A stretch of DNA of 60,560 bases from contig JAGWHU010000007.1 of assembly GCA_028866575.1 (NCBI GenBank), forward strand, positions 1-60,560. The letters are read 5' to 3'. Below, piece by piece: positions 31,815-60,400 of the stretch. The notes below the pieces were generated by a model. It worked only from the letters and a program-made list of their open reading frames with translations. It did no database searches and had not been told where the DNA came from. The number at the start of each line of letters is the position of its first letter. The stretch's first letter is position 1. The position numbers were made by a program, and so were the translations under genes. The stretch is from Candidatus Micrarchaeota archaeon (GTDB lineage Archaea; Micrarchaeota; Micrarchaeia; Micrarchaeales; Micrarchaeaceae).

Positions 31815-31899
31815 TTAGGTGCCTAAAGCTTTAAAAGCCTTTGGTTTAGGTACCGAAAGGTATATATGTCTTAGGTACCTAATAATATTAGGTGCCTAA
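31815..31899. promoter_or_regulatory. Array of TTAGGTRCCTAA palindromes
   Basis: Near-identical 12-bp palindromes lie at 31815-31826 (TTAGGTGCCTAA), 31846-31857 (TTAGGTACCGAA, imperfect), 31871-31882 (TTAGGTACCTAA) and 31888-31899 (TTAGGTGCCTAA). They surround a TATATATG promoter element, and the last one abuts the transposase ATG. Binding there would block both divergent genes. Confidence 0.8.
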
Positions 31900-31900
31900 T

Positions 31901-33097
31901 ATGATAGCACAAACAAACTTAAGAAGACAAAGAGGTTATGAGATAGCTCAACAAAAGACAATAAAGATAATAAAGTCTGGCTGGCTTGTAGAGTCTCAAT
32001 CAGGGAATGGATTTTATAAAGTATCAAATGAATTTATCTGCAACTGTCCAGACTCAGAACTGCATAAAGAGACCTGCAAACATGCTTTTGCAGTTAGATA
32101 TTATCTAAATATTGAAAAAAGAAGTATGCATGGTCTTGAAACTCACAAAATACCACTTACTTACTCACAAGCGTGGACTACCTATAATCAAGCACAAATG
32201 TCAGAAGGCAAGCTATTTTATGAACTTTTAAGAGATTTAGTAAAAGATTTGGAAGACCCTTTAAACAAGCAGAAAACGGGCAGACCACGTATGAAATTCA
32301 ATGATACTATGTACCTTGCAATAGCCAAAGTGTATTCCCAATTGTCCTGCAGAAGGGCTAATTCCTTATTTGGAATAGTACGAGATAGAGGCTTTGTAAA
32401 AGAGATACCACATTTCAATGCTTTATCAGTAGTCCTAAATAGAGCAGATATAACACCTATTCTGCAAGAGTTAATAGCTACTACATCAGCCCCTTTAAAA
32501 TCTGTAGAAGTCGCCTTTGCAGTAGATAGCTCTGGATTTAGGACACGTTCTTTCAGTCCTTATGTTGATGATAAGTACGGTATAAAAAGAGAACATAAAT
32601 GGATTAAGGCACATATCTGCGTTGGCACAAAGACAAACGTAATAACGGCACTAAAGATAACAGAAGGTTATAGTGCCGATTCAAAGGAATTCATACAGTT
32701 AGCACAGACAACAAAGGATAATGGCTTTGATATACAAGAAATCTCGGCAGATAAAGCATATAGCAGTAGAGAGAATTTCTCGTATATAGACAGCATTGGC
32801 GGTACTGCCTTCATACCGTTCAAATCAAACTCAAGAGCAAAACCAAAGGGAAGTAGGATTTGGAATAAGATGTATCATTATTTCAATATGAATAAGGACG
32901 AGTTTATGTTGCATTATCATAAGAGAAGTAATGTAGAGAGTACTTTTGCGTCTATAAAAAGGAAGTTAGGCGATACCTTAAAATCAAAAAATAGGACATC
33001 ACAGATTAATGAATTGCTGTGTAAAATAATCGCATACAATATTACTGTTTTGATTCAGGAAATGTATGAATTGGGTATGACTATTGATTTACAATAA
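31901..33097 (+). CDS. SWIM zinc-finger DDE transposase
   Basis: A 398-residue transposase. The N-terminal SWIM finger has Cys47, Cys49, Cys59 and His61 (ICNCPD...ETCKHAF). The catalytic triad of an RNase H-fold DDE enzyme is visible as Asp209 (AVDSSGF), Asp284 (SADKAYSS) and Glu346 (KRSNVESTF); the last has the Y/R-E-x6-R/K style of the IS4/IS5 group. The frame appears intact. The ATG at 31901 is chosen over a GTG 9 bases upstream, which lies in the operator. No inverted repeats immediately flanking this single gene were found; the larger element has its own ends. Confidence 0.85.
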   Translation: MIAQTNLRRQRGYEIAQQKTIKIIKSGWLVESQSGNGFYKVSNEFICNCPDSELHKETCKHAFAVRYYLNIEKRSMHGLETHKIPLTYSQAWTTYNQAQMSEGKLFYELLRDLVKDLEDPLNKQKTGRPRMKFNDTMYLAIAKVYSQLSCRRANSLFGIVRDRGFVKEIPHFNALSVVLNRADITPILQELIATTSAPLKSVEVAFAVDSSGFRTRSFSPYVDDKYGIKREHKWIKAHICVGTKTNVITALKITEGYSADSKEFIQLAQTTKDNGFDIQEISADKAYSSRENFSYIDSIGGTAFIPFKSNSRAKPKGSRIWNKMYHYFNMNKDEFMLHYHKRSNVESTFASIKRKLGDTLKSKNRTSQINELLCKIIAYNITVLIQEMYELGMTIDLQ

Positions 33098-50184: not shown

Positions 50185-51744
50185 ATGCCGGCAGCGAGCA
50201 AGAACCCAAAGGGAGATCACGAGGGCAAGCAGAAGTCCGAGGAGACGCAGAAGGCGGAGGAAGTGCACACAGTGGACATCGCGGCAAAGGAGCACTGGAA
50301 GAAGGGCAACTCCCTGTTTGAGGAAAGCAAGTTCGAGGAGGCGATAGGGGAGTACAACGAGGCGATACGCATAGACGCCAAGTATGCCGATGCGTATTTC
50401 AACAGGGCGCTTACGAAAAGGGTGACAAACGACTTCGACGGAGCGAAGAACGACCTGGAAATGGTCCTGAGCCTGCAGCCGAAGAGCGCGGACGCGCCTT
50501 TGCTCATAGGGGACATAGCCGAGAACGCCAACGACCTGCTCAGCGCCAAGTACTGGTACGAGAAGTCGCTTGCAAACAACCCGGATTATACGGAGGCGAA
50601 GAACAGGCTCGAGCACATAGATTCCCTGATGCACATGGATACTGACATAGCGGGCAAGCAGGGCACGCAGCAGGTGCAGGTGAAGAAGGAGGAGCAGAAG
50701 GACGTGATAGAGGAAGGGCAGATAAAGAAGGTGGCATTCCTCAAGTCTGACGTAAGGTTCGATGACGTGATAGGGCTTGAGAAGGTGAAGCGCTACCTGC
50801 AGGAAAACGTCGTCCTTGCGATAAAGAAGCCGGAGCTGTTCAAGAAGTACGGGAAGAAGCTGGGACTGGGCCTTTTGCTATACGGCCCTCCGGGCACCGG
50901 AAAGACATACATAGTCAGGGCGATAGCCGGCGAGGCTGGGGCCAACGTGATAATCGCAAGGGTGAACCAGATAGTCGACATGTACACAGGAAATACAGAG
51001 AAGAACCTACATGCAATATTTGAGCAGGCAAGGAAGAACACCCCGTGCATAATATTCTTCGACGAGCTTGACGCACTCGGGGTGAAGAGGGGCGGCGACG
51101 AGCCCGGAGGGGGCAACAGCTCGGCACTGAGGCTCGCGGTCAACCAGTTCCTCGTGGAAATGAGCGGCGTAGAGAGCAATCCGGAGGGCATATACGTAAT
51201 AGGAGCAACCAACAACCCGTGGGACATAGACCCGGCGCTCAAGAGGAGCGGGAGGTTCGGGGACAGCGTCTACATAAAGCCCCCGAGCTATAAGGACAGG
51301 AGGAACCTGTTCAAGTACTATACCAGGAACAAGCCGATTGGCAACCTGAATTACGGGAGGCTGGCTAGGGCAACAATGGGATACTCCCCTGCGGACATAG
51401 AGAGAGTGGCTGACAAGGCCGCGATGCTGCCGCTGCTCCACGAGTACACCCTGAACATGAGCAGGGAATACAGCATGAAGGACGTACTTTCCATACTGCG
51501 CGACAAGGACTACAGCGGGAGCTCCCTTGACGAATGGTACGCGATGGTTAAGAAGGACGTCATAACCAAAACCGAGGTCCAGATAATAGACGGCAAGAAG
51601 CAGGAGATAGTGAAGGAGGGCAAGCTGGACCCCCAGGAGAAGATATTATACAAGACGATGGTGAGCGACATAAAGAGGAACACCAGCAGCATGGTCATAT
51701 TCATAAGGAAGTTCGTGAGATGGTTTGCAGTCAACGCATTCTGA
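50185..51744 (+). CDS. TPR-AAA+ ATPase fusion
   Basis: A 519-residue protein. A charged N-terminal tail precedes three or so TPR units at about 33-140 (AKEHWKKGNSLFEESKFEEAI, YADAYFNRALTK, SAKYWYEKSLANNP). A linker leads to one AAA+ domain at about 190-420: Walker A GPPGTGKT at about 234-241, Walker B IIFFDELDA, and an arginine finger region LKRSGRFGD. The C-terminal region is helical and basic. TPR plus a single AAA module suggests a substrate-selecting remodelling ATPase. It is unlike Cdc48, PAN or Vps4 in layout. Encoded upstream of a pilin-like gene on the opposite strand. Confidence 0.85.
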   Translation: MPAASKNPKGDHEGKQKSEETQKAEEVHTVDIAAKEHWKKGNSLFEESKFEEAIGEYNEAIRIDAKYADAYFNRALTKRVTNDFDGAKNDLEMVLSLQPKSADAPLLIGDIAENANDLLSAKYWYEKSLANNPDYTEAKNRLEHIDSLMHMDTDIAGKQGTQQVQVKKEEQKDVIEEGQIKKVAFLKSDVRFDDVIGLEKVKRYLQENVVLAIKKPELFKKYGKKLGLGLLLYGPPGTGKTYIVRAIAGEAGANVIIARVNQIVDMYTGNTEKNLHAIFEQARKNTPCIIFFDELDALGVKRGGDEPGGGNSSALRLAVNQFLVEMSGVESNPEGIYVIGATNNPWDIDPALKRSGRFGDSVYIKPPSYKDRRNLFKYYTRNKPIGNLNYGRLARATMGYSPADIERVADKAAMLPLLHEYTLNMSREYSMKDVLSILRDKDYSGSSLDEWYAMVKKDVITKTEVQIIDGKKQEIVKEGKLDPQEKILYKTMVSDIKRNTSSMVIFIRKFVRWFAVNAF

Positions 51745-51751
51745 TTCCAGG

Positions 51752-52537
51752 TCAAACAAAGCTTATCGCTATGCTGTTGCTAAGCCCGGCGTAATGCGCC
51801 GTAACTATAACGTTGCCTGCGGCTGTGCCGTATATGCTGCCTATCGCTATGCCGTTTGAGTTCGTGGTCGTGTTGCGCGAAAGCACGTAGTTGCCATTGC
51901 TTTCCGTGAAGTTCACGGTGGCGCCCTTCAGTGGATAGCCAAGGAGCGTGACGTAAGCCGTGAGCTGGTCTCCCTGGCCGCTTGCCTTTTGGGTGTAATT
52001 TAGTGCCGTCAGCTTGATCGAATACCTTGTGGTTACTATCGGCTGCGCGTGAGCAGCAAAGCTCCCGGAATAGGTTTGCTTCTCGCCGTTGGAGCAACTC
52101 TTGGGCGAAGTGGAAAGGCCGCAGTATGTGGCGTTGAGGTAAAGGTCCCCGGATGAAAGTTCCCCTATGCTTACGTACGAATTCAGGCTTAGCGTGCATA
52201 TCATTGACCCGCCCTGGAGGACGAAGCTTGGAGAGCATGGCACTGCAGTCGTGTTGGCGCTATTCACCCGTGCGTAAATCTCCGGATTCGTTATGGGATA
52301 CTGCTGTGAATTCGTGAGGAACAGAGCTATTACCGTATTGTGGGATATGGTATTTGTACCAACGATAACCTCGTTGCAGTATATGCTGCTTAGAAAGTTG
52401 CACGTGTCGCCCACGATCTTCTGCGGGGCATAAAGGTACAGGTAAAGCACCCCCATCACTATCCCAAGTATAAGTATCGCCCACCCGAAAGTGACCATGT
52501 ATTCCATGGCTGCTTGTGCATTATTTTCATTACGCAT
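51752..52537 (-). CDS. Class III signal peptide protein with Ig-like/Big-1 domain
   Basis: A 261-residue exported protein. NAQAAMEYMVTFGWAILILG is the class III (archaellin/pilin-type) signal cut by EppA/FlaK-like peptidases before Gln or Ala, with the hydrophobic helix forming a pilus core. The external part has Cys pairs (CNFLSSIYC) and, at about 175-261, an invasin/Big-1-like Ig domain (YSIKLTALNYTQKASGQGDQL, NGIAIGSIYGTAAGNVIVTA). It could be a minor pilin or an anchored adhesin. Divergent from the T4SS-like operon. Confidence 0.85.
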   Translation of the reverse strand: MRNENNAQAAMEYMVTFGWAILILGIVMGVLYLYLYAPQKIVGDTCNFLSSIYCNEVIVGTNTISHNTVIALFLTNSQQYPITNPEIYARVNSANTTAVPCSPSFVLQGGSMICTLSLNSYVSIGELSSGDLYLNATYCGLSTSPKSCSNGEKQTYSGSFAAHAQPIVTTRYSIKLTALNYTQKASGQGDQLTAYVTLLGYPLKGATVNFTESNGNYVLSRNTTTNSNGIAIGSIYGTAAGNVIVTAHYAGLSNSIAISFV

Positions 52538-52714
52538 ATAACTTACTTTTGATTATATTTTTTTTATGACTATAGTAAAATATTTTAGAGATATTTTATT
52601 CTTATCCATAGACCAGATAGCTCTGCTAAAACATAAAAACCTATTTTTCCTACAAAATAATAATTAATCCGACAAAGCCCATTTTATCAAAATGTTTAAA
52701 TATTTATTTGTGGT

Positions 52715-52727: not shown

Positions 52728-52753
52728 TAAAGTAAAAGAACTTGGATGAGTGT

Positions 52754-53140
52754 ATGAGCCCTAAAATATGCCGTAATTATCCCGAATTTGTTAGGAAGAT
52801 AACAAAATATTTGACAATACCCAGTTTGGTAATTATAGTGTTAGCATCGAGATTTGTTGAGGCAGGAAGTGTACCGTTAGTAACTGAAATAAATAATATT
52901 CAATTAGTACTTACACAAGTAGGTCCTGCATTAAGCGCTGTACTGTTTGTGTTGGCAGGCATATTCTATGCAATAGGGCAAATGTTGCCTCCAGACAAAA
53001 AAGCTAATTTTCACACTGCTGCAGTTAACATGATTATTGGTGCAATAGTTGTTGGGGTATTGAGTGTAGCATCGACGTCTCTTGCTATTGCATCCACGCA
53101 TCTTATCGGTAACTTTACTTCTGGGAATTCTTTAATATAA
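52754..53140 (+). CDS. VirB2/CedA1-like pilin candidate
   Basis: A 128-residue protein with an N-terminal hydrophobic, signal-like helix (about 19-36), then two long hydrophobic helices joined by a short charged loop: VLTQVGPALSAVLFVLAGIF, the loop MLPPDKKANFHTA, and NMIIGAIVVGVLSVASTSLAI. This is the pattern of VirB2/TrbC pilins and of CedA1/TedC, the archaeal mating-pilus subunits. GGATGAG precedes the ATG. It starts an operon of nine coupled genes, as pilin genes often do. The identity rests on topology and neighbours, not on close sequence match. Confidence 0.6.
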   Translation: MSPKICRNYPEFVRKITKYLTIPSLVIIVLASRFVEAGSVPLVTEINNIQLVLTQVGPALSAVLFVLAGIFYAIGQMLPPDKKANFHTAAVNMIIGAIVVGVLSVASTSLAIASTHLIGNFTSGNSLI

Positions 53141-54202
53141 ATGGTGAATTTTTTGGCCCTTGGTTTTGGAGTATATACAATTGCAATAGCTTTGATATCA
53201 ATAATGCTTTCTATAGCAGGCATGATTTTGGGTTTGGGTTATGCAATTGATGATAGGAAACTCAAAGAATTCGGGAAATCTGAAATTTATCAATCGGTTA
53301 TAAATGGAGCCATAGTGGGAATATTAATAATTGCATTTGGTAGTGGTGGATTTTTTACTTTATTAATAAACAATATAACTGGAGGAGCTGCTATTACAGC
53401 TACATGCGAGCAAGCCATGAGCTCCAATTATGCGATATGTTTTGCTTACAATTATCTAGTAGGCTTACAGCCAGTAGGCATAAATGGTGCAAACTACCCT
53501 ACACTTATAGACACATCAGTTGGCCTACTAGCTCCAGTTTCCGTGTTATACACTAGCTTGAGCCTTTTGGGTTCTATAAAACTTAGTTTGGGTGTAATAA
53601 GTATCGGCTTTTATAGTGCATTAAATCCGATTTTAACTGCACTGAATTATATAATAGAGATACTTACAGCGGCAATAATAAGCATAGAGGTGCAAGGAAT
53701 TCTGCTAAAATTTATATCAATAATTGCAATACCTGTTCTTCTTCCAGTAGGCATACTGTTAAGGACAGTCTATGTAACTAGGAAACTTGGTGGTGCAGTA
53801 ATGGCTATTGCAATTGGATTATATGCAGTATTTCCATTGACATACGTCTTGGATGCAAGCCTTGCAAATAGTTACATTACTAGTTTAAGTAGTGGATCGG
53901 TAAGTACTTTCATAGCTTCTGAAACAAATTCAAATAACAATATAATAAGTATGACGACTCAAATAAGCGAAAGCAACAAAAATGACACATTTGGATTTGT
54001 TAGTTACTTTACAAATGCAATAAATAATCTCGTAAAAGGATTTGATGGTTTTCTTAATCAACTTACAAGCATGGTAGCACTTATAATAATAGAGGTATTT
54101 TTCCTACCCGTTTTTAGCCTCATATTAACTGTGATATCAATAAGAGAACTTGCAAATATTTTAGGTTCTGAGATAAGTTTTGGGAAACTTTACATATTTT
54201 AG
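53141..54202 (+). CDS. Polytopic membrane protein, CedA/VirB6-like
   Basis: A 353-residue protein with about seven membrane helices and a hydrophilic stretch at about 250-290 rich in Ser and Asn. The ATG directly follows the pilin stop (TAAATG). In Ced-type DNA importers a protein of this size and topology, CedA, forms the membrane channel and has been compared to VirB6; the present one has the same neighbour (a CedA1-like pilin). No enzymatic motif. It could equally be a novel channel protein. Confidence 0.65.
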   Translation: MVNFLALGFGVYTIAIALISIMLSIAGMILGLGYAIDDRKLKEFGKSEIYQSVINGAIVGILIIAFGSGGFFTLLINNITGGAAITATCEQAMSSNYAICFAYNYLVGLQPVGINGANYPTLIDTSVGLLAPVSVLYTSLSLLGSIKLSLGVISIGFYSALNPILTALNYIIEILTAAIISIEVQGILLKFISIIAIPVLLPVGILLRTVYVTRKLGGAVMAIAIGLYAVFPLTYVLDASLANSYITSLSSGSVSTFIASETNSNNNIISMTTQISESNKNDTFGFVSYFTNAINNLVKGFDGFLNQLTSMVALIIIEVFFLPVFSLILTVISIRELANILGSEISFGKLYIF

Positions 54203-54209
54203 TGATATC

Positions 54210-54944
54210 TTGGAGCATGATATAAGGTTTTATGTGATTGCCAGTGTTCTAATATTACTAACTATAGCAAGTTTATTCACATTAAAATGGATTTTGATAA
54301 TTGTAAGCTTAACAATTACCGGATTATCAATCGTATTTTACAAAATGTATTACATAATTGAAGCATCAATAATTAAAAGGACGGGAATAGTACAATTAAT
54401 AGACGGGAATGAACTTAGTGGAGATAGGACAACCACAGTGAGAAGAGTAAAAGGTAATTTCATAGCCACTGCAGTTGCAATCCTCAAAAACAATTCTAAA
54501 GAACCAATAACAAGAGATAAAATAGAAAATATTTTGGAAAATTCACATTTTACATTCAGGTTCATTATGCAAATTGAACACATAGATGTCAACAAGTTGC
54601 TTGATAGACTTCAAACAAAAAGGAGCATGTTAGAAATAGAGTTAGATAAACTCAATGATCATGTAACTAAAAATAATTCCTTAAAAATAAACGTGTTAAA
54701 ACGTAGAATAGATCAAATAAATCATGAATTGGACAGCATAAGTTCTGGAGGCACTCCATTGAAGATTTCACAATATATAATGACAAGTGCAATGGCTGCT
54801 AATAAATCCAGTGCACAAGAACAGGCAAAATCTCAATTGCGTGAATTAGTTAGTGAGTTTGGGGCGTTACTTGGAACATCATCGAATATAATGAGTGGCA
54901 ACGAATTGCTTGAGCTTTTAAAATTCGATTCTATGGCGATTTGA
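54210..54944 (+). CDS. Membrane protein with two N-terminal helices and coiled coil
   Basis: A 244-residue protein: two adjacent hydrophobic helices at about 8-44, then a cytosolic part with a winged-helix-like segment (KEPITRDKIENILEN) and a long coiled coil at about 135-180 (RLQTKRSMLEIELDKLNDHV, VLKRRIDQINHELD). Its position between channel and ATPase and its helix pair recall VirB3- or TrbD-like linkers, though the soluble part is unrelated. TTG 54210 follows GTGAT; it ends inside the start of the first ATPase gene (TTGATG), so coupling is tight. Confidence 0.6.
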   Translation: MEHDIRFYVIASVLILLTIASLFTLKWILIIVSLTITGLSIVFYKMYYIIEASIIKRTGIVQLIDGNELSGDRTTTVRRVKGNFIATAVAILKNNSKEPITRDKIENILENSHFTFRFIMQIEHIDVNKLLDRLQTKRSMLEIELDKLNDHVTKNNSLKINVLKRRIDQINHELDSISSGGTPLKISQYIMTSAMAANKSSAQEQAKSQLRELVSEFGALLGTSSNIMSGNELLELLKFDSMAI

Positions 54945-56326
54945 TGAATATAAATGAGAATTCAAATTCGAAAGAGGCAAGCAAAAGCATTTATTTAGGG
55001 CGAATGTCAGAGCCCTATTTTACTGATAGTGATAGAGGAATATACGTAGGTAAAAGCAAAATATACAAAATCCCGTTCTTTTTAGATCTTGATAACTTGA
55101 TAAATAGAAACATGGCAATTTTAGGCATGTCGGGAGCAGGAAAAAGCTATTTCCTTAAAAGTTTCGTAATAAGAAGCGCTTTGCAGAGGAACTCATATGT
55201 ATTGATAATAGATTGGAATGGAGAATATAATAGTGTGATAGAATTTCTAGGTGGGAAAAATTTAATTTTAGGAACTGATTTTAAAGTAAACGTATTCAAA
55301 TTGTACGATCTAAAGAGCATAAAAAATATAAAAATTGTATCCGATTGTATAGTGCTTTCGCTAAATTTGAACGAAGAAGAAAGTTACATAATATATAATA
55401 AGATCTTATCTATGTGCTATCCTAATAGTGTAATCAAAAACCTGTCTGAATTGATTACAGGATTCAAAAATGATACGAATCCAGATTCTGAAAAACTTGC
55501 AAATAAGCTTTTACAGCTGAAAGAGAATCCCATGTTTGCAGAAGGAACTGATTTTGCCGTTGATGAAATACTGGATGGTATCATAAATATTGATTTTTCG
55601 ATGCTCAAAGACAACGTGCAAAGAAATGATATATCGAGATCTATATTTATGATCATAATAGAACTGATGCACAACACGAAAATAGAAGCAAAAAAAGAAA
55701 AATTGATAATTCTTGATGAAGCATGGAGACTCATAAAGAATTCAAATGACGTTGGAGTACTTTATAGAGAGGGTAGAAAGTATGGGTTCTGCATTATTAC
55801 TGCAACACAACTTGTGCAGGATATCGACAACGAAGTGATTTCTAATGCCGCATCCATAGTTATATTCAGATTACAGAATGAGGCAGACTATAGTCTTCTT
55901 CTAAATTCTGGGATTATAAGGGAGGAGGATAAAAAAATTATAATGCAATTACAAACTGGAGGTTGCATGTTTTCGATAGCATTCAAAAATGATAATAATC
56001 AAATATGTAAATTTTTTATAGAATCCACAGATGGAATCAGCACTAGTTTTTACAACATAAAAAGTGGTAAAATGAGGAGAAGAATATCTCATAGATTACT
56101 TATGGAATCCACAAGTAAATTGAATGCAAGCAATGAAATAAAAGAAAGGCTCATCGGATTCATTTCGGAAAACAATAGGGAACTGGATGATGTACATCTA
56201 GTGGCATTCATGGTGAATGCAGGCATTCCGAGATTAGAAATAGTTTATTACCTTAGACTTCTTGGACTAAAGGACGAGCATATAGTTATGGCATATAACA
56301 GCGCAGTCCGTATTTCTAAAACGTAG
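54944..56326 (+). CDS. HerA/VirB4-type ATPase 1
   Basis: A 460-residue P-loop ATPase. Walker A is GMSGAGKS at 61-68; Walker B is LIILDEAWRL at about 254-263, the DEAW form typical of VirB4/TraC-type conjugation ATPases; TATQLVQDI follows as sensor-like motif. It lacks the VirB4 N-terminal domain, so it is essentially the motor core with a C-terminal helical extension of about 90 residues. It would power pilus assembly or DNA movement at the membrane. Confidence 0.85.
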   Translation: MNINENSNSKEASKSIYLGRMSEPYFTDSDRGIYVGKSKIYKIPFFLDLDNLINRNMAILGMSGAGKSYFLKSFVIRSALQRNSYVLIIDWNGEYNSVIEFLGGKNLILGTDFKVNVFKLYDLKSIKNIKIVSDCIVLSLNLNEEESYIIYNKILSMCYPNSVIKNLSELITGFKNDTNPDSEKLANKLLQLKENPMFAEGTDFAVDEILDGIINIDFSMLKDNVQRNDISRSIFMIIIELMHNTKIEAKKEKLIILDEAWRLIKNSNDVGVLYREGRKYGFCIITATQLVQDIDNEVISNAASIVIFRLQNEADYSLLLNSGIIREEDKKIIMQLQTGGCMFSIAFKNDNNQICKFFIESTDGISTSFYNIKSGKMRRRISHRLLMESTSKLNASNEIKERLIGFISENNRELDDVHLVAFMVNAGIPRLEIVYYLRLLGLKDEHIVMAYNSAVRISKT

Positions 56327-56336
56327 TGGTTTTATT

Positions 56337-56975
56337 ATGGTAGAAAATGAAAGCATTTTCTTGAGTACATCTTTTCATGCAGCTGCAGCATTAAGGACAA
56401 ACATGAGTTACGTAAAAGACATTCTTACATTGGTTCCGAATGCCAAAAAAATGGTTGATGGACCTATGTTAAAATATGAAATATCCATGGCTGACGGTGA
56501 AAGAAGCTTACTAGAATTATCAGACAGTCATATGAGTTTAAGGTTCTCAGCAAAAATGCAGAGTTCGTTGAAATACAAGACAAACTTTCTCAAATTTGTC
56601 TCATTAATGGCTTTACTTAAAGGTCAGTATACTGTTGATATTAGTACCATATATGATTATATAATAGAAGCGTTGGAACAAAATTGGCAGAATTCTTCAC
56701 ATGATCAGGGACAAGTAATAGAAGGCTTAAAAGAAAGGATAAATATATTAGATAAATCAAATTTTTCACTCGGTTTAAAGCTTATTGAAATGTCGAAGGA
56801 AATTAAACGCATTTCATCAGAAGTGTCTATTTATAAGGAATTTAGCGCTTCGGTAATGTCCAAAACATGCGAAATAAAAAATGGAAAGAAGACATACGAC
56901 TATTCTACATTGATGCAATTCGGGGTTGACAGTCGGCTTGCAAAAAGTGTCGAAACGATGATCCGTGAAGGCTGA
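56337..56975 (+). CDS. Hypothetical soluble component of the operon
   Basis: A 212-residue soluble protein. The N-terminal half is alpha/beta (AAAALRTNMSYVKDILTLV, KYEISMADGERSLLEL) and a coiled-coil segment lies at about 125-165. No membrane helix and no known motif. Placed between two ATPase-linked genes with only short gaps. It may be a cytosolic adaptor or a chaperone. I do not recognise it. Confidence 0.6.
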   Translation: MVENESIFLSTSFHAAAALRTNMSYVKDILTLVPNAKKMVDGPMLKYEISMADGERSLLELSDSHMSLRFSAKMQSSLKYKTNFLKFVSLMALLKGQYTVDISTIYDYIIEALEQNWQNSSHDQGQVIEGLKERINILDKSNFSLGLKLIEMSKEIKRISSEVSIYKEFSASVMSKTCEIKNGKKTYDYSTLMQFGVDSRLAKSVETMIREG

Positions 56976-56981
56976 TAGTAT

Positions 56982-57671
56982 ATGTATACACCCATACAAA
57001 GTACTAACTATGCTGGATATTATGGCCTAATAATGATACCTATAGGAATGGCCGTATATTTCATTATAAGATATGGTTCTGACTTAAGCACATCATACAA
57101 TGGACTTTGTATAAATAGTGGCGAATATTTTATTGATAAGGAATACATAAGTGTGGATGAATTATATAGTACCATCAACGCAAGATTAAAGGAAAACGAC
57201 CGTGTTTTCATAGTAAAAAATTTACCGCTGCGTATTAATGAGCTTTCATTTAAGCATTTGAATGTTTATGCATCATCTAAATCTGCTGTTTTGGATAACA
57301 TGAATGACTATCTCCAAAATCTAATAGAATGCAATTTAGATGAAATGATGTGCAAGAACAATGTTATAATAAGAAAAGAGGACAACTTTTGTAAAAAATT
57401 TTCAGCAAGAATAGCATATGATGAATTTATAAATCATGGATCTTTCTCAATCAAGGACAAATTAGACAAATTCTTATATAAAAATGAGATAAGTGCAGAA
57501 AATGATTTAAGTTTGAAAGTTATTTCTAAAAGTAATATGATAAAGACAGTTTTTACTTTTAGCTATACACATCGCAGGGCTTTTGCTTCAAGATTTAATT
57601 TATTTGGATATGGCAACGGATTAATTTTTTTCATGATGCTGAACGACCTCGTTAGGGTAATAAATTGCTAA
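56982..57671 (+). CDS. Membrane-anchored hypothetical component
   Basis: A 229-residue protein with one N-terminal membrane helix (about 12-30, YYGLIMIPIGMAVYFIIRYG), a soluble central part, and a hydrophobic, possibly membrane-associated C-terminus (YGNGLIFFMMLNDLVRV). It overlaps the next gene by 7 bases. No domain recognised; layout would suit a scaffold around the channel. Confidence 0.6.
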   Translation: MYTPIQSTNYAGYYGLIMIPIGMAVYFIIRYGSDLSTSYNGLCINSGEYFIDKEYISVDELYSTINARLKENDRVFIVKNLPLRINELSFKHLNVYASSKSAVLDNMNDYLQNLIECNLDEMMCKNNVIIRKEDNFCKKFSARIAYDEFINHGSFSIKDKLDKFLYKNEISAENDLSLKVISKSNMIKTVFTFSYTHRRAFASRFNLFGYGNGLIFFMMLNDLVRVINC

Positions 57672-57850
57672 CCATAGTCAATTACATAGCCAGATTCGGC
57701 CTGGCAATTGGAGTATTGCTACTTGACACAGGGATGCTTTTATGGCTTTTTGATAAATCCAATAGAAGAGCAAGCAACAAAATCGCAATGGATATGATTC
57801 GCGGCTCAATTACCTTGATAATTTTTGCACTTTTGGCATATATTTGGTGA
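57665..57850 (+). CDS. 61-residue two-helix membrane protein (CedA2/VirB2-like)
   Basis: A TTG-started small protein with two hydrophobic helices (about 5-29 and 46-60) joined by a basic loop (DKSNRRASNKIAMDMI). The pattern matches CedA2 and VirB2-type small subunits. The overlap with the preceding gene shows it is translated. A TTG start and its size would make it easy to miss. Confidence 0.55.
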   Translation: MLTIVNYIARFGLAIGVLLLDTGMLLWLFDKSNRRASNKIAMDMIRGSITLIIFALLAYIW

Positions 57851-57872
57851 GTGCCTGTTTGACGAGATAAAA

Positions 57873-58157
57873 ATGATGTACAAGGAGCAAAGTGCATTTG
57901 ATATTTTATTTTTATCTGTCGTGATGGGGCTGCTTACATCAATTTCGATTGCGGCATCCGCATTACAGCTTCATTATCTTGGTATATTGCAGAATGTTCC
58001 AAATTATCTTCACGTGATAATATTTTCATTCGTGTTTTTTTTATCGTTTGTAACATCTTTTGTATTCAAGTTTAGGATACATATACCAATCGAGAAAAAA
58101 CTACTTTTGATAGTAGGCATATTTTTTTCTATCATTATCATTTACGTGATTTTATGA
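57873..58157 (+). CDS. Three-helix membrane protein
   Basis: A 94-residue protein with three hydrophobic helices (about 10-35, 42-63 and 73-93) and basic ends. The ATG at 57873 follows GACGAGAT; earlier in-frame starts would fall inside the preceding gene. It ends inside the ATG of the large ATPase (ATGA overlap), typical of subunits that must be made in ratio with it. Confidence 0.55.
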   Translation: MMYKEQSAFDILFLSVVMGLLTSISIAASALQLHYLGILQNVPNYLHVIIFSFVFFLSFVTSFVFKFRIHIPIEKKLLLIVGIFFSIIIIYVIL

Positions 58158-60400
58158 GCCATGGTATGAAATTTTATAGAATTTCGGAACTACCAAGCAA
58201 GAAAATAGACAGCAATAAGATATTCGAATGCATAGGAAAACAGAATTTTGTTCTGTTATACGATTTGGCAAATTCAACATCCATGTTGGGATTCATGCAA
58301 AAGGATTTCGAGGACATAGGGCTAAAAATGGAAAAATTCATTCCTGGGATGCACATGACAGAACTTGAATTTCATAAGCTAGACGGCAATTTAGATATCA
58401 AGGCATTTTCGATATATAGGAAGGTGGACAGATATGAAGATAAATTGTTTAACGATGTATTTAACTTACTGCCAACAATTAGTGTGTTAGGTATTCTTTT
58501 CGTACCTATAAGAGTTGAAGAGATCAACTACATTAAAAAGCACATAGAAGATGTCCTTAGTTCAAAAACAGTTAGGGAAACCGAATCATCATTTATGGTG
58601 CGCAATAAGTCAAACTCAACGTTGCAAAAGGAACTTTACTATGACTCAGAAGAAAAAATGATGCTGAATGACACACTTGAATCACTGAACAAATCAATAT
58701 TGGGAAATAACCTTGTATATAAGATATTCCTTATTGCATCCGGTGACATAGTAGATTTGAGTCGTTATATAAAGACTAATTTTCTTATACTGGAAGAGTA
58801 CAATTTTAATAAAGATACTATTGAGGCTGTTATACATCAGCTTTCTAATAAGCCTTCCCTTTCTTTTGGTACCGATTACGCCAAGGAGTTTATGAATTTC
58901 CATGGTTATTATGATGTGAATCATACGCTAACTACTTCAGCTCCTAAAAGCGGAAACGGGATTCGTATAGGCAAATTTGTCAAGGATGGTGTGTCTGAAA
59001 CAGATTTTGATATAAACATAGAGCCATCGACGATTAATTTAGGCTTTATTATAACAGGGCTGCCGGGCTCTGGAAAGACGGTGGAAGCTATGTCAGTTTT
59101 GGATTCAATTATTTCCAGTAAGGCCACAAAGCCAACAGTATTTGTTATAACACCCACAAGCGAATGGAAAAATTTTGCACTATGCCATAAAATGCACTTC
59201 ATAAAATTGTGCGATGATGACACTCCAATAAATTTTTTCAGACACCCAAAAACAGTAGGATCTGAAAAGTTTTACGGCAATCTTGCAATGATACTATCTG
59301 CTGCAGCAAATTCAGGACCTTACCAAAAGCCCATGGAAAAATGCATGCTTAGTGCATTCAGAAGAGTTTACATTACAAATAAGAATTACAATGACACCGA
59401 ACCAGACCCGATAAAAGTATATGATGAAATAGAAGAATCGGTTACTAGATATCATGGCAAAAGGATTCCCAGCGGAATAAAATATACTAAACACGGCGAA
59501 AATATAAGATCAGGACTTGAAAATCTGCGTGGTATATTAAGCAAAAAACAATATTGTGTAAAGGAAGGCATAAGAATTGAGGATTTCATCGGAAGCGGCG
59601 CAATTTTTGACGTTTCTGGCGCAAGTTCTGGCACAAGAACACAATTATATGCGCTAATATTGAATCAGATTTACGCACTTACCGATGGCCTTGACATGGA
59701 AGGAGATAATGAGCTAAGGCTTGTTATATGCCTTGAGGAGGCCCAAACCATATTTGGAGATCCGTATTCTCCTGCTGTACAGGATATAAAGCAGCGGATA
59801 CAGGATTTTAGAAAGCAGGGTATAGGACTCATCCTGCTTACCCACAATGTAAATGATATAGAGGCGGGTATCAGAAGGCTGTGCCAGATCAAACTGTACC
59901 TCAAACAAGCATCGGATATTGCACCGATAGCTGCTAAAGATCTGATATTCGCCTATGTAGACAACGATGAAGTGGTACTTAAGCTGAAAACGTTAAGCTC
60001 AAGGATAGGCGCATTCAGCAGCACTTCCAAATCAGGACATGAGAAAAGACAGCAAGACACTATTTTCATAAAAACTGAAACATATGTTCAAGAAAACTGC
60101 ATCAATCCAAGCAATCTTATATCCAAATATATGGAAAAACTGAATATCAACACTGTAGAAGAAATAAAATGCACTATTGAGCTTAAGAGATTACCTGATT
60201 CAAAAGAGCTTAAGGAATGCACCATAATACTTAGATTTCTTGGTGAGGAGATATGGAGGGCCTTAATAGATAAGATGTCTGGATACGAAATTTGTCTTTT
60301 AAAAGGCAAAGATTATACAATACAAATACTTGATAAAAAGGGTAGGATCCTAAAAGACCTGCGTGTTTGCGGGGCACAGCATATATGTATTTATGCTTAA
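58154..60400 (+). CDS. HerA/VirB4-type ATPase 2 (CedB-like)
   Basis: A 748-residue ATPase. The N-terminal 290 residues are a VirB4-like accessory domain without clear motifs. Walker A GLPGSGKT is at 302-309. Walker B is RLVICLEEAQTIF, with Glu528/Glu529, the EEA form of HerA/CedB-like motors; LLTHNVNDI follows, then a conserved RLCQIKLYLK strand. The long C-terminal domain (about 620-748) is unassigned. In Ced systems one HerA/VirB4 ATPase (CedB) drives DNA uptake; a second full-length one beside a short one is unusual. Confidence 0.87.
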   Translation: MSHGMKFYRISELPSKKIDSNKIFECIGKQNFVLLYDLANSTSMLGFMQKDFEDIGLKMEKFIPGMHMTELEFHKLDGNLDIKAFSIYRKVDRYEDKLFNDVFNLLPTISVLGILFVPIRVEEINYIKKHIEDVLSSKTVRETESSFMVRNKSNSTLQKELYYDSEEKMMLNDTLESLNKSILGNNLVYKIFLIASGDIVDLSRYIKTNFLILEEYNFNKDTIEAVIHQLSNKPSLSFGTDYAKEFMNFHGYYDVNHTLTTSAPKSGNGIRIGKFVKDGVSETDFDINIEPSTINLGFIITGLPGSGKTVEAMSVLDSIISSKATKPTVFVITPTSEWKNFALCHKMHFIKLCDDDTPINFFRHPKTVGSEKFYGNLAMILSAAANSGPYQKPMEKCMLSAFRRVYITNKNYNDTEPDPIKVYDEIEESVTRYHGKRIPSGIKYTKHGENIRSGLENLRGILSKKQYCVKEGIRIEDFIGSGAIFDVSGASSGTRTQLYALILNQIYALTDGLDMEGDNELRLVICLEEAQTIFGDPYSPAVQDIKQRIQDFRKQGIGLILLTHNVNDIEAGIRRLCQIKLYLKQASDIAPIAAKDLIFAYVDNDEVVLKLKTLSSRIGAFSSTSKSGHEKRQQDTIFIKTETYVQENCINPSNLISKYMEKLNINTVEEIKCTIELKRLPDSKELKECTIILRFLGEEIWRALIDKMSGYEICLLKGKDYTIQILDKKGRILKDLRVCGAQHICIYA

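Follow-up and report, generated by a model that had tools for sequence, protein, structure and literature searches.

The closest described counterparts of the locus reported here are the archaeal Ced and Ted DNA-transfer systems, in which CedA1 and TedC are conjugative pilins (PMC9905601). DNA import in Saccharolobus needs both CedB and CedD, and the N-terminal domains of these two proteins match different parts of the VirB4 N-terminal domain (PMC11868833). A nine-gene operon with components of this kind was analyzed at positions 52742–60400 (forward strand) of contig JAGWHU010000007.1 (hereafter C7) from a Candidatus Micrarchaeota archaeon (assembly GCA_028866575.1). The window, i.e. the whole stretch of 60,560 nucleotides that was analyzed, is the entire contig C7 of a 1.13 Mb genome that is 97.5% complete; the operon therefore stops ∼160 bases short of the contig end. 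An initial annotation, made from the letters of the window, had proposed a machine derived from a type IV secretion system (T4SS), with a pilin, a polytopic protein and two ATPases, in a host that might belong to DPANN. Pfam pilin matches, a CedB match and VirB4 folds support the first proposal, and the operon product almost certainly derives from a T4SS; the second was correct as well, the organism being a member of the Micrarchaeota. On balance, we favor the view that the operon product is a T4SS derivative which has become domesticated, is passed on with the chromosome and functions in the manner of the archaeal Ced/Ted systems.

Operon layout, pilin and polytopic protein

All nine open reading frames (ORFs) are open and lie on one strand, with neighbors that abut, overlap or stand a few bases apart; the tight coupling claimed for these genes is borne out. 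Their order and topology also recur across many genomes. Gene 1 (52742–53140, +; the likelier start is the ATG at 52754) encodes a VirB2/TrbC-type T4SS pilin. Among 24 homologues, 17 match the Pfam T4SS_pilin family and 10 match TrbC/VirB2; the window protein itself matches T4SS_pilin with an E-value of 3.3e-5 and 24.3 bits, slightly under the curated cut-off of 26.6. The family alignment contains a signal-peptide-like helix followed by two helices that flank a positive loop (PPDKKANFH), a layout shared with VirB2 and TedC (PMC9905601), and A-x-A-like sites precede the mature part in many homologues. The first hydrophobic helix resembles a signal peptide, which would leave a mature pilin with two helices. 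The VirB2-like pilin of the initial annotation stands, as most gene 1 homologues match pilin families. Gene 2 (53141–54202, +) encodes a polytopic membrane protein with 6–9 helices that belongs to a conserved family (A3). Its location immediately 3' of the pilin gene, matching that of tedA relative to tedC, and its topology suggest a CedA/VirB6-like protein.

A probably split VirB4-type motor and a second, complete one

Gene 3 (54180–54944, +) encodes two transmembrane helices and a VirB4 N-terminal domain. This domain was recognized from an AlphaFold2 model (predicted local distance difference test score, pLDDT, 85.8), for which the top 11 Foldseek matches were all VirB4/TrwK of R388, the first eight with a probability of 1.00; the sequence itself had no match in Pfam, NCBIfam or the PDB. 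Of the four membrane or coiled-coil proteins that had initially been left without assignment, gene 3 can thus be placed, through the Foldseek comparison of its model. Gene 4 (54941–56326, +) supplies a HerA/VirB4-superfamily ATPase domain (Walker A GMSGAGKS, Walker B LIILDEAW) that has no N-terminal domain. Its best NCBIfam match is CedB (E-value 1.3e-23, profile positions 244–522 of 590), with a score well above those of VirB4, TraC and HerA, and it is the best CedB match within its own genome. As CedB matched better than HerA, gene 4 is not the HerA of a NurA-HerA system.

When genes 3 and 4 were joined in silico, the alignment to CedB extended over positions 10–522, with 86 bits compared to 83.5 bits for gene 4 alone. 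The gain in score is small, and it is the collinearity with CedB that counts. Homologues of gene 3 were found in 207 of 223 genomes of the phylum that are at least 80% complete; among those listed, open frames reached at most ∼410 amino acids, so that no fused form of genes 3 and 4 was seen. It is very likely that genes 3 and 4 together represent one split CedB/VirB4.

Gene 9 (58154–60400, +) encodes a second ATPase of VirB4 fold, complete with its own N-terminal domain (AlphaFold2 pLDDT 87.6). The model matches VirB4/TrwK over its full length (Foldseek E-value 7e-15), followed at lower ranks by HerA (2.7e-12, rank 9), the Thermoanaerobacter VirB4 motor domain (2.4e-11) and the coupling protein TrwB (rank 47). 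TM-scores were low (0.3–0.4), which indicates that the arrangement of domains differs from that of the matched structures. The Walker A residues G302, P304, G305, G307 and K308 are invariant in 31 homologues; the protein has an extra C-terminal beta domain (∼665–748), and its model contains no transmembrane helix. Sequence kinship between gene 3 and the N-terminal part of gene 9 was looked for and was absent. The description of two HerA/VirB4-type ATPases of different build was accurate, with CedB as the best match of gene 4 and a VirB4 fold in gene 9. The accompanying claim that a second ATPase does not fit Ced has to be given up, since CedD, a paralogue of CedB, is an essential part of Ced (PMC11868833).

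Conservation, co-occurrence and inheritance

The close relatives of the organism are Candidatus Micrarchaeota, some of them Micrarchaeaceae, and are mostly metagenome-assembled. When 119 relatives were searched with gene 9, most members of the order's two families returned strong matches. The initial annotation had suggested looking for the same nine-gene block in other genomes; it is present, running from gene 1 to gene 9 as a single block in 23 of the 40 relatives that hold gene 9, and the gene order is common to both families. The remaining relatives include some in which gene 9, or genes 8–9, lie apart from genes 1–7 in the same genome. Overall, the operon recurs with its order kept in approximately two thirds of one Candidatus Micrarchaeota order and is missing from approximately one third. 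Across 147 genomes of the order that are at least 70% complete, both gene 9 and the block gene 2 were present in 90, gene 9 only in 8, gene 2 only in 12 and neither in 37, many of the single-gene cases being incomplete genomes. This co-occurrence is significant by Fisher's test (p = 1e-16, a value inflated by relatedness).

These patterns bear on the reading that two unrelated HerA-type ATPases, used in repair or packaging, lie by chance beside membrane genes. Both ATPases do belong to the FtsK-HerA superfamily, and HerA is among the structural matches of gene 9. The reading is refuted by the pilin matches, the VirB4 N-terminal fold of gene 3, the conserved order and the co-occurrence, and a distinct HerA-like gene lies elsewhere in the genome (C1:140005–140868); we give it practically no weight.

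Beyond the order, gene 9 was found in only three genomes, all of family f15. In the gene 9 tree, families f1 and f2 each form one group (support 99/98 and 95/96) and f15 falls outside. As far as the sequences can tell, the operon is vertically inherited and chromosomal. No compact block adjoins the f15 relatives of gene 9 (L177:9728–12163, L191:7147–9585 and L178:6920 onward), and in one f15 genome (G204) the gene 9 reading frame is longer, at 1076 amino acids. A divergent block of genes 1–4 in another genome, one that consists of a single contig (G025; L158:8062–9063), has a stop codon within gene 2 and no gene 9, and is probably a decaying copy.

The base composition of the block is unusual in this genome, with 34% G+C compared to 48% in the remaining window. 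In relatives, mean G+C was 44.0% in the block and 44.7% in the flanks. The genes are therefore AT-rich in this genome, as first described, and low G+C was rejected as a mark of the system, being peculiar to this genome. The AT-rich block may have been acquired here from an AT-rich relative, or may have evolved towards such a composition. Genes flanking the block vary among relatives, which indicates either that the block moves within chromosomes or that the chromosomes rearrange. A search for conserved neighbors of the block returned few recurring genes, none of which hinted at function.

The presence of T4SS genes, their odd composition in this genome, the variable neighbors and the third of genomes lacking the block could all be expected of a self-spreading conjugative mobile element. 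Relatives, however, do not share the difference in G+C, and the gene 9 tree follows families; this vertical tree largely refutes the idea. The coupling protein VirD4 (PF02534) and relaxase PF03432 are absent from the whole genome, where other relaxase families were not searched. No relatives of genes 2 or 9 were found in viral contigs, and plasmids yielded only distant ATPase matches and no copy of the system. A mobile element is accordingly very improbable in our estimation. The missing relaxase had also been taken to favor import over self-transfer. That argument does not hold, as no relaxase homologue has been recognized in archaeal genomes or conjugative plasmids (PMC9905601), and its absence therefore says little about direction.

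A sister locus with six gene 2 paralogues

A search with gene 2 uncovered another, larger T4SS-like locus of this genome, on contig C3 at ∼67563–79685 (L151:7564–19686). Its gene order starts with a pilin and a six-helix protein; next come six gene 2 paralogues in tandem, a pair of gene 3 paralogues and finally an ATPase of the gene 4 type (506 amino acids). Across the phylum, 243 of 276 genomes encode proteins of the gene 2 type. Exactly six paralogues were present in 23 of the 24 arrays read across the phylum, the remaining one being called with five. Within the order, each array position matched the same position elsewhere (36/36 comparisons), and a tree of 85 proteins, covering the six positions and the gene 2 of compact blocks, contained 8 label changes, compared to a minimum of 6 and to 58 for shuffled labels. 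The ATPases of the arrays match CedD or CedB best, below the cut-off (C3-locus ATPase against CedD, NF053655, 5.9e-19). Compact blocks with a single gene 2 are also found in other families.

The shared gene families, together with phylum-wide arrays of six position-orthologous paralogues, identify the window block as the compact sister of a phylum-wide machine. On one reading the six paralogues form a hetero-hexameric channel, and given their fixed number one may ask whether channels of this type can be hetero-oligomeric. VirB6 paralogues are also carried by the bacterial Rickettsiales, according to the accessible text of the source (PMC7648143).

Genes 5–8 and the genomic setting

Gene 5 (56337–56975, +) encodes a soluble protein with a coiled-coil-like stretch that matches no known family; its homologues adjoin gene 4 in most blocks and are also found in the six-paralogue locus. 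Genes 6–8 are conserved in place and topology and diverge fast in sequence. Gene 6 (56982–57671, +) encodes a membrane-anchored protein. Positional homologues were found for gene 7 (57665–57850, +), a two-helix membrane protein of 61 amino acids whose sequence changes fast, and for gene 8 (57825–58157, +), a small three-helix membrane protein encoded directly 5' of gene 9. In compact blocks of family f4 (L180, L181), the gene 6 homologue has 704–710 amino acids and is followed by a protein of 1024–1034 amino acids. Weak immunoglobulin (Ig)-like matches were seen in one of these homologues and in the protein after it, both of which are possible contact proteins.

A 204-base gap separates the operon from a divergent gene upstream and contains a putative TATA-box-like element (TTTAAATA, 52695–52702, +) 5' of the operon. 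The product of the divergent gene (51752–52537, −) has a hydrophobic start like that of type IV pilins (QAAMEYMVTFGWAILIL) and carries a Big_1 Ig-like domain, and similar proteins were found near some blocks of other genomes. A gene at 50185–51744 (+) encodes TPR repeats fused to an AAA ATPase. Elsewhere in the window, a DDE transposase gene (31892–33097, +) lies within another AT-rich stretch (33–38% G+C).

Proposed mechanism, cargo and direction

The machine probably transfers DNA or proteins between cells in contact with each other, and the archaeon is probably host-dependent. In the mechanism we envisage, the gene 1 product would be inserted via its signal peptide and, starting at the membrane, polymerize to form a thin pilus or conduit of VirB2 type, at the base of which the gene 2 product may form a membrane channel. 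The gene 3 product, to judge by its fold, would serve as the membrane anchor of the VirB4 N-terminal domain and hold the gene 4 ATPase, so that the two would rebuild one CedB/VirB4 motor. Gene 9 may provide a second VirB4-type hexameric ATPase, probably cytosolic, in the role of CedD or of the missing VirD4, and the products of genes 5–8 could act as adaptors or contact proteins. The cargo would most likely be single-stranded DNA passing between touching cells, likelier inward by analogy with Ced. On that analogy, inward transfer of DNA is our first choice of cargo and direction, with host-directed delivery as a serious rival; for the nature of the cargo, we lean towards DNA.

Several results weigh against a machine of the Ced/Ted type. 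Gene 4 does not reach the CedB equivalog level (83 bits compared to a cut-off of 700), and the best Foldseek E-value of gene 3 is only 1.6e-3. Gene 9 had no match at an E-value of 0.1 to the CedD model (NF053655, from the same library as that of CedB) and is thus a second VirB4-type motor that is not recognizably CedD. For gene 2, the CedA/VirB6-like assignment of the initial annotation was right as to polytopic character and position and gained nothing from sequence: searches of Pfam, NCBIfam and PDB profiles gave zero matches, as did those that used 38 diverse paralogues. A pilin-like start, as reported for CedA, was sought in gene 2 and was absent, and a channel-pilin resemblance of the CedA/CedA1 type was not seen.

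Alternatively, the operon could encode a host-directed T4SS that attaches to a Thermoplasmatales-type host or delivers proteins into it, moving no DNA. Other archaea serve as hosts to Micrarchaeota, and descriptions exist of pili-like connections with host cells that lack a wall (PMC5498576). In Saccharibacteria, a T4SS without a recognizable coupling protein or relaxase, as here, is essential for epibiotic growth (PMC10633639), and in Nanohaloarchaea, VirB4 ATPases are associated with giant Ig-like surface proteins, as far as the accessible text of that report goes (PMC10266531). Host-directed roles are likewise proposed for the T4SS of Patescibacteria and for the giant nanohaloarchaeal Ig-domain/VirB4 proteins in the accessible parts of these sources (PMC10633639, PMC12102498, PMC10266531). 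The Ig-like matches of the f4 gene 6 homologue and its following gene, weak as they are, point the same way; gene 6 of the window, however, has no Ig-like domain. Moreover, the curated families nearest to the ATPases consist of DNA-import proteins, and no effector candidates were identified, such that we consider a purely host-directed machine rather unlikely.

Should the operon indeed encode a Ced/Ted-like transfer machine, the Ced/Ted idea would extend from Thermoproteota to DPANN. Named and widespread genes are now testable for DPANN gene exchange with hosts and attachment to them, and the natural division of VirB4 into a membrane half and a motor half offers a direct test of how the halves work. 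For Mia14, a Micrarchaeon in culture, DNA exchange via membrane proteins or likely conjugative elements has been only a matter of speculation (PMC5498576).

Comparison with known systems

Bacterial VirB2/VirB4/VirB6 conjugation, with TrwK of R388 as its VirB4, resembles the operon in the fold of genes 3 and 9 and in the family of gene 1. It differs in having outer-membrane parts, VirD4 (PF02534) and a relaxase (PF03432), which were not found here, whereas the operon has two VirB4 motors, one of them split. The T4SS of Patescibacteria is likewise near-universal, lacks a relaxase and belongs to ultrasmall host-dependent cells; it falls in the bacterial MPF_FATA clade, and the accessible text of its description reports no split VirB4 (PMC12102498). 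The giant nanohaloarchaeal Ig/VirB4 proteins (SPEARE) share a DPANN host and the tie of VirB4-type ATPases to surface proteins, but their ATPase is fused to a giant adhesin, and no pilin/channel operon is described in the accessible text (PMC10266531). No published T4SS of Micrarchaeota, or account of either locus, was found in the accessible literature, a search that took in few subscription papers and preprints; for Mia14, one paper refers in general terms to two type IV pili systems and to likely conjugative elements (PMC5498576).

Ted (TedA, TedB and TedC; Thermoproteales) has in common with the operon a pilin with a cleavable signal peptide, followed directly by a polytopic gene, with a VirB4-like ATPase nearby. 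Unlike the operon, Ted is described with TedB as a single VirB4-like ATPase; we know of no gene 9 counterpart in it. Ced (CedA, CedA1, CedA2, CedB, CedD and CedE; Sulfolobales) corresponds more broadly: it too is chromosomal and without a relaxase, and combines a small VirB2-type pilin, a polytopic protein, a small two-helix protein, a CedB-like ATPase and a second related ATPase. On the other hand, genes 5, 6 and 8 are extra here, the pilin seems to bear a signal peptide that CedA1 does not have, and gene 4 lies far under the CedB cut-off. The operon is set apart from Ced by a CedB-like ATPase split over two genes and a second ATPase without a CedD match; with one motor split and the other complete, the parallel to CedB and CedD is a loose one. 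We tentatively suggest, at somewhat less than even confidence, that Micrarchaeota have a T4SS class of their own, whose motor consists of two halves, an N-terminal one anchored in the membrane and a soluble one with the ATPase. This class would exist in a compact form, that of the window, which has a single channel gene and an additional VirB4 motor, and in a phylum-wide form, with two motor-anchor proteins and six ancient, non-interchangeable channel paralogues that could build a hetero-hexameric pore, one of the two forms being a contact device that draws DNA or other material from host archaea.

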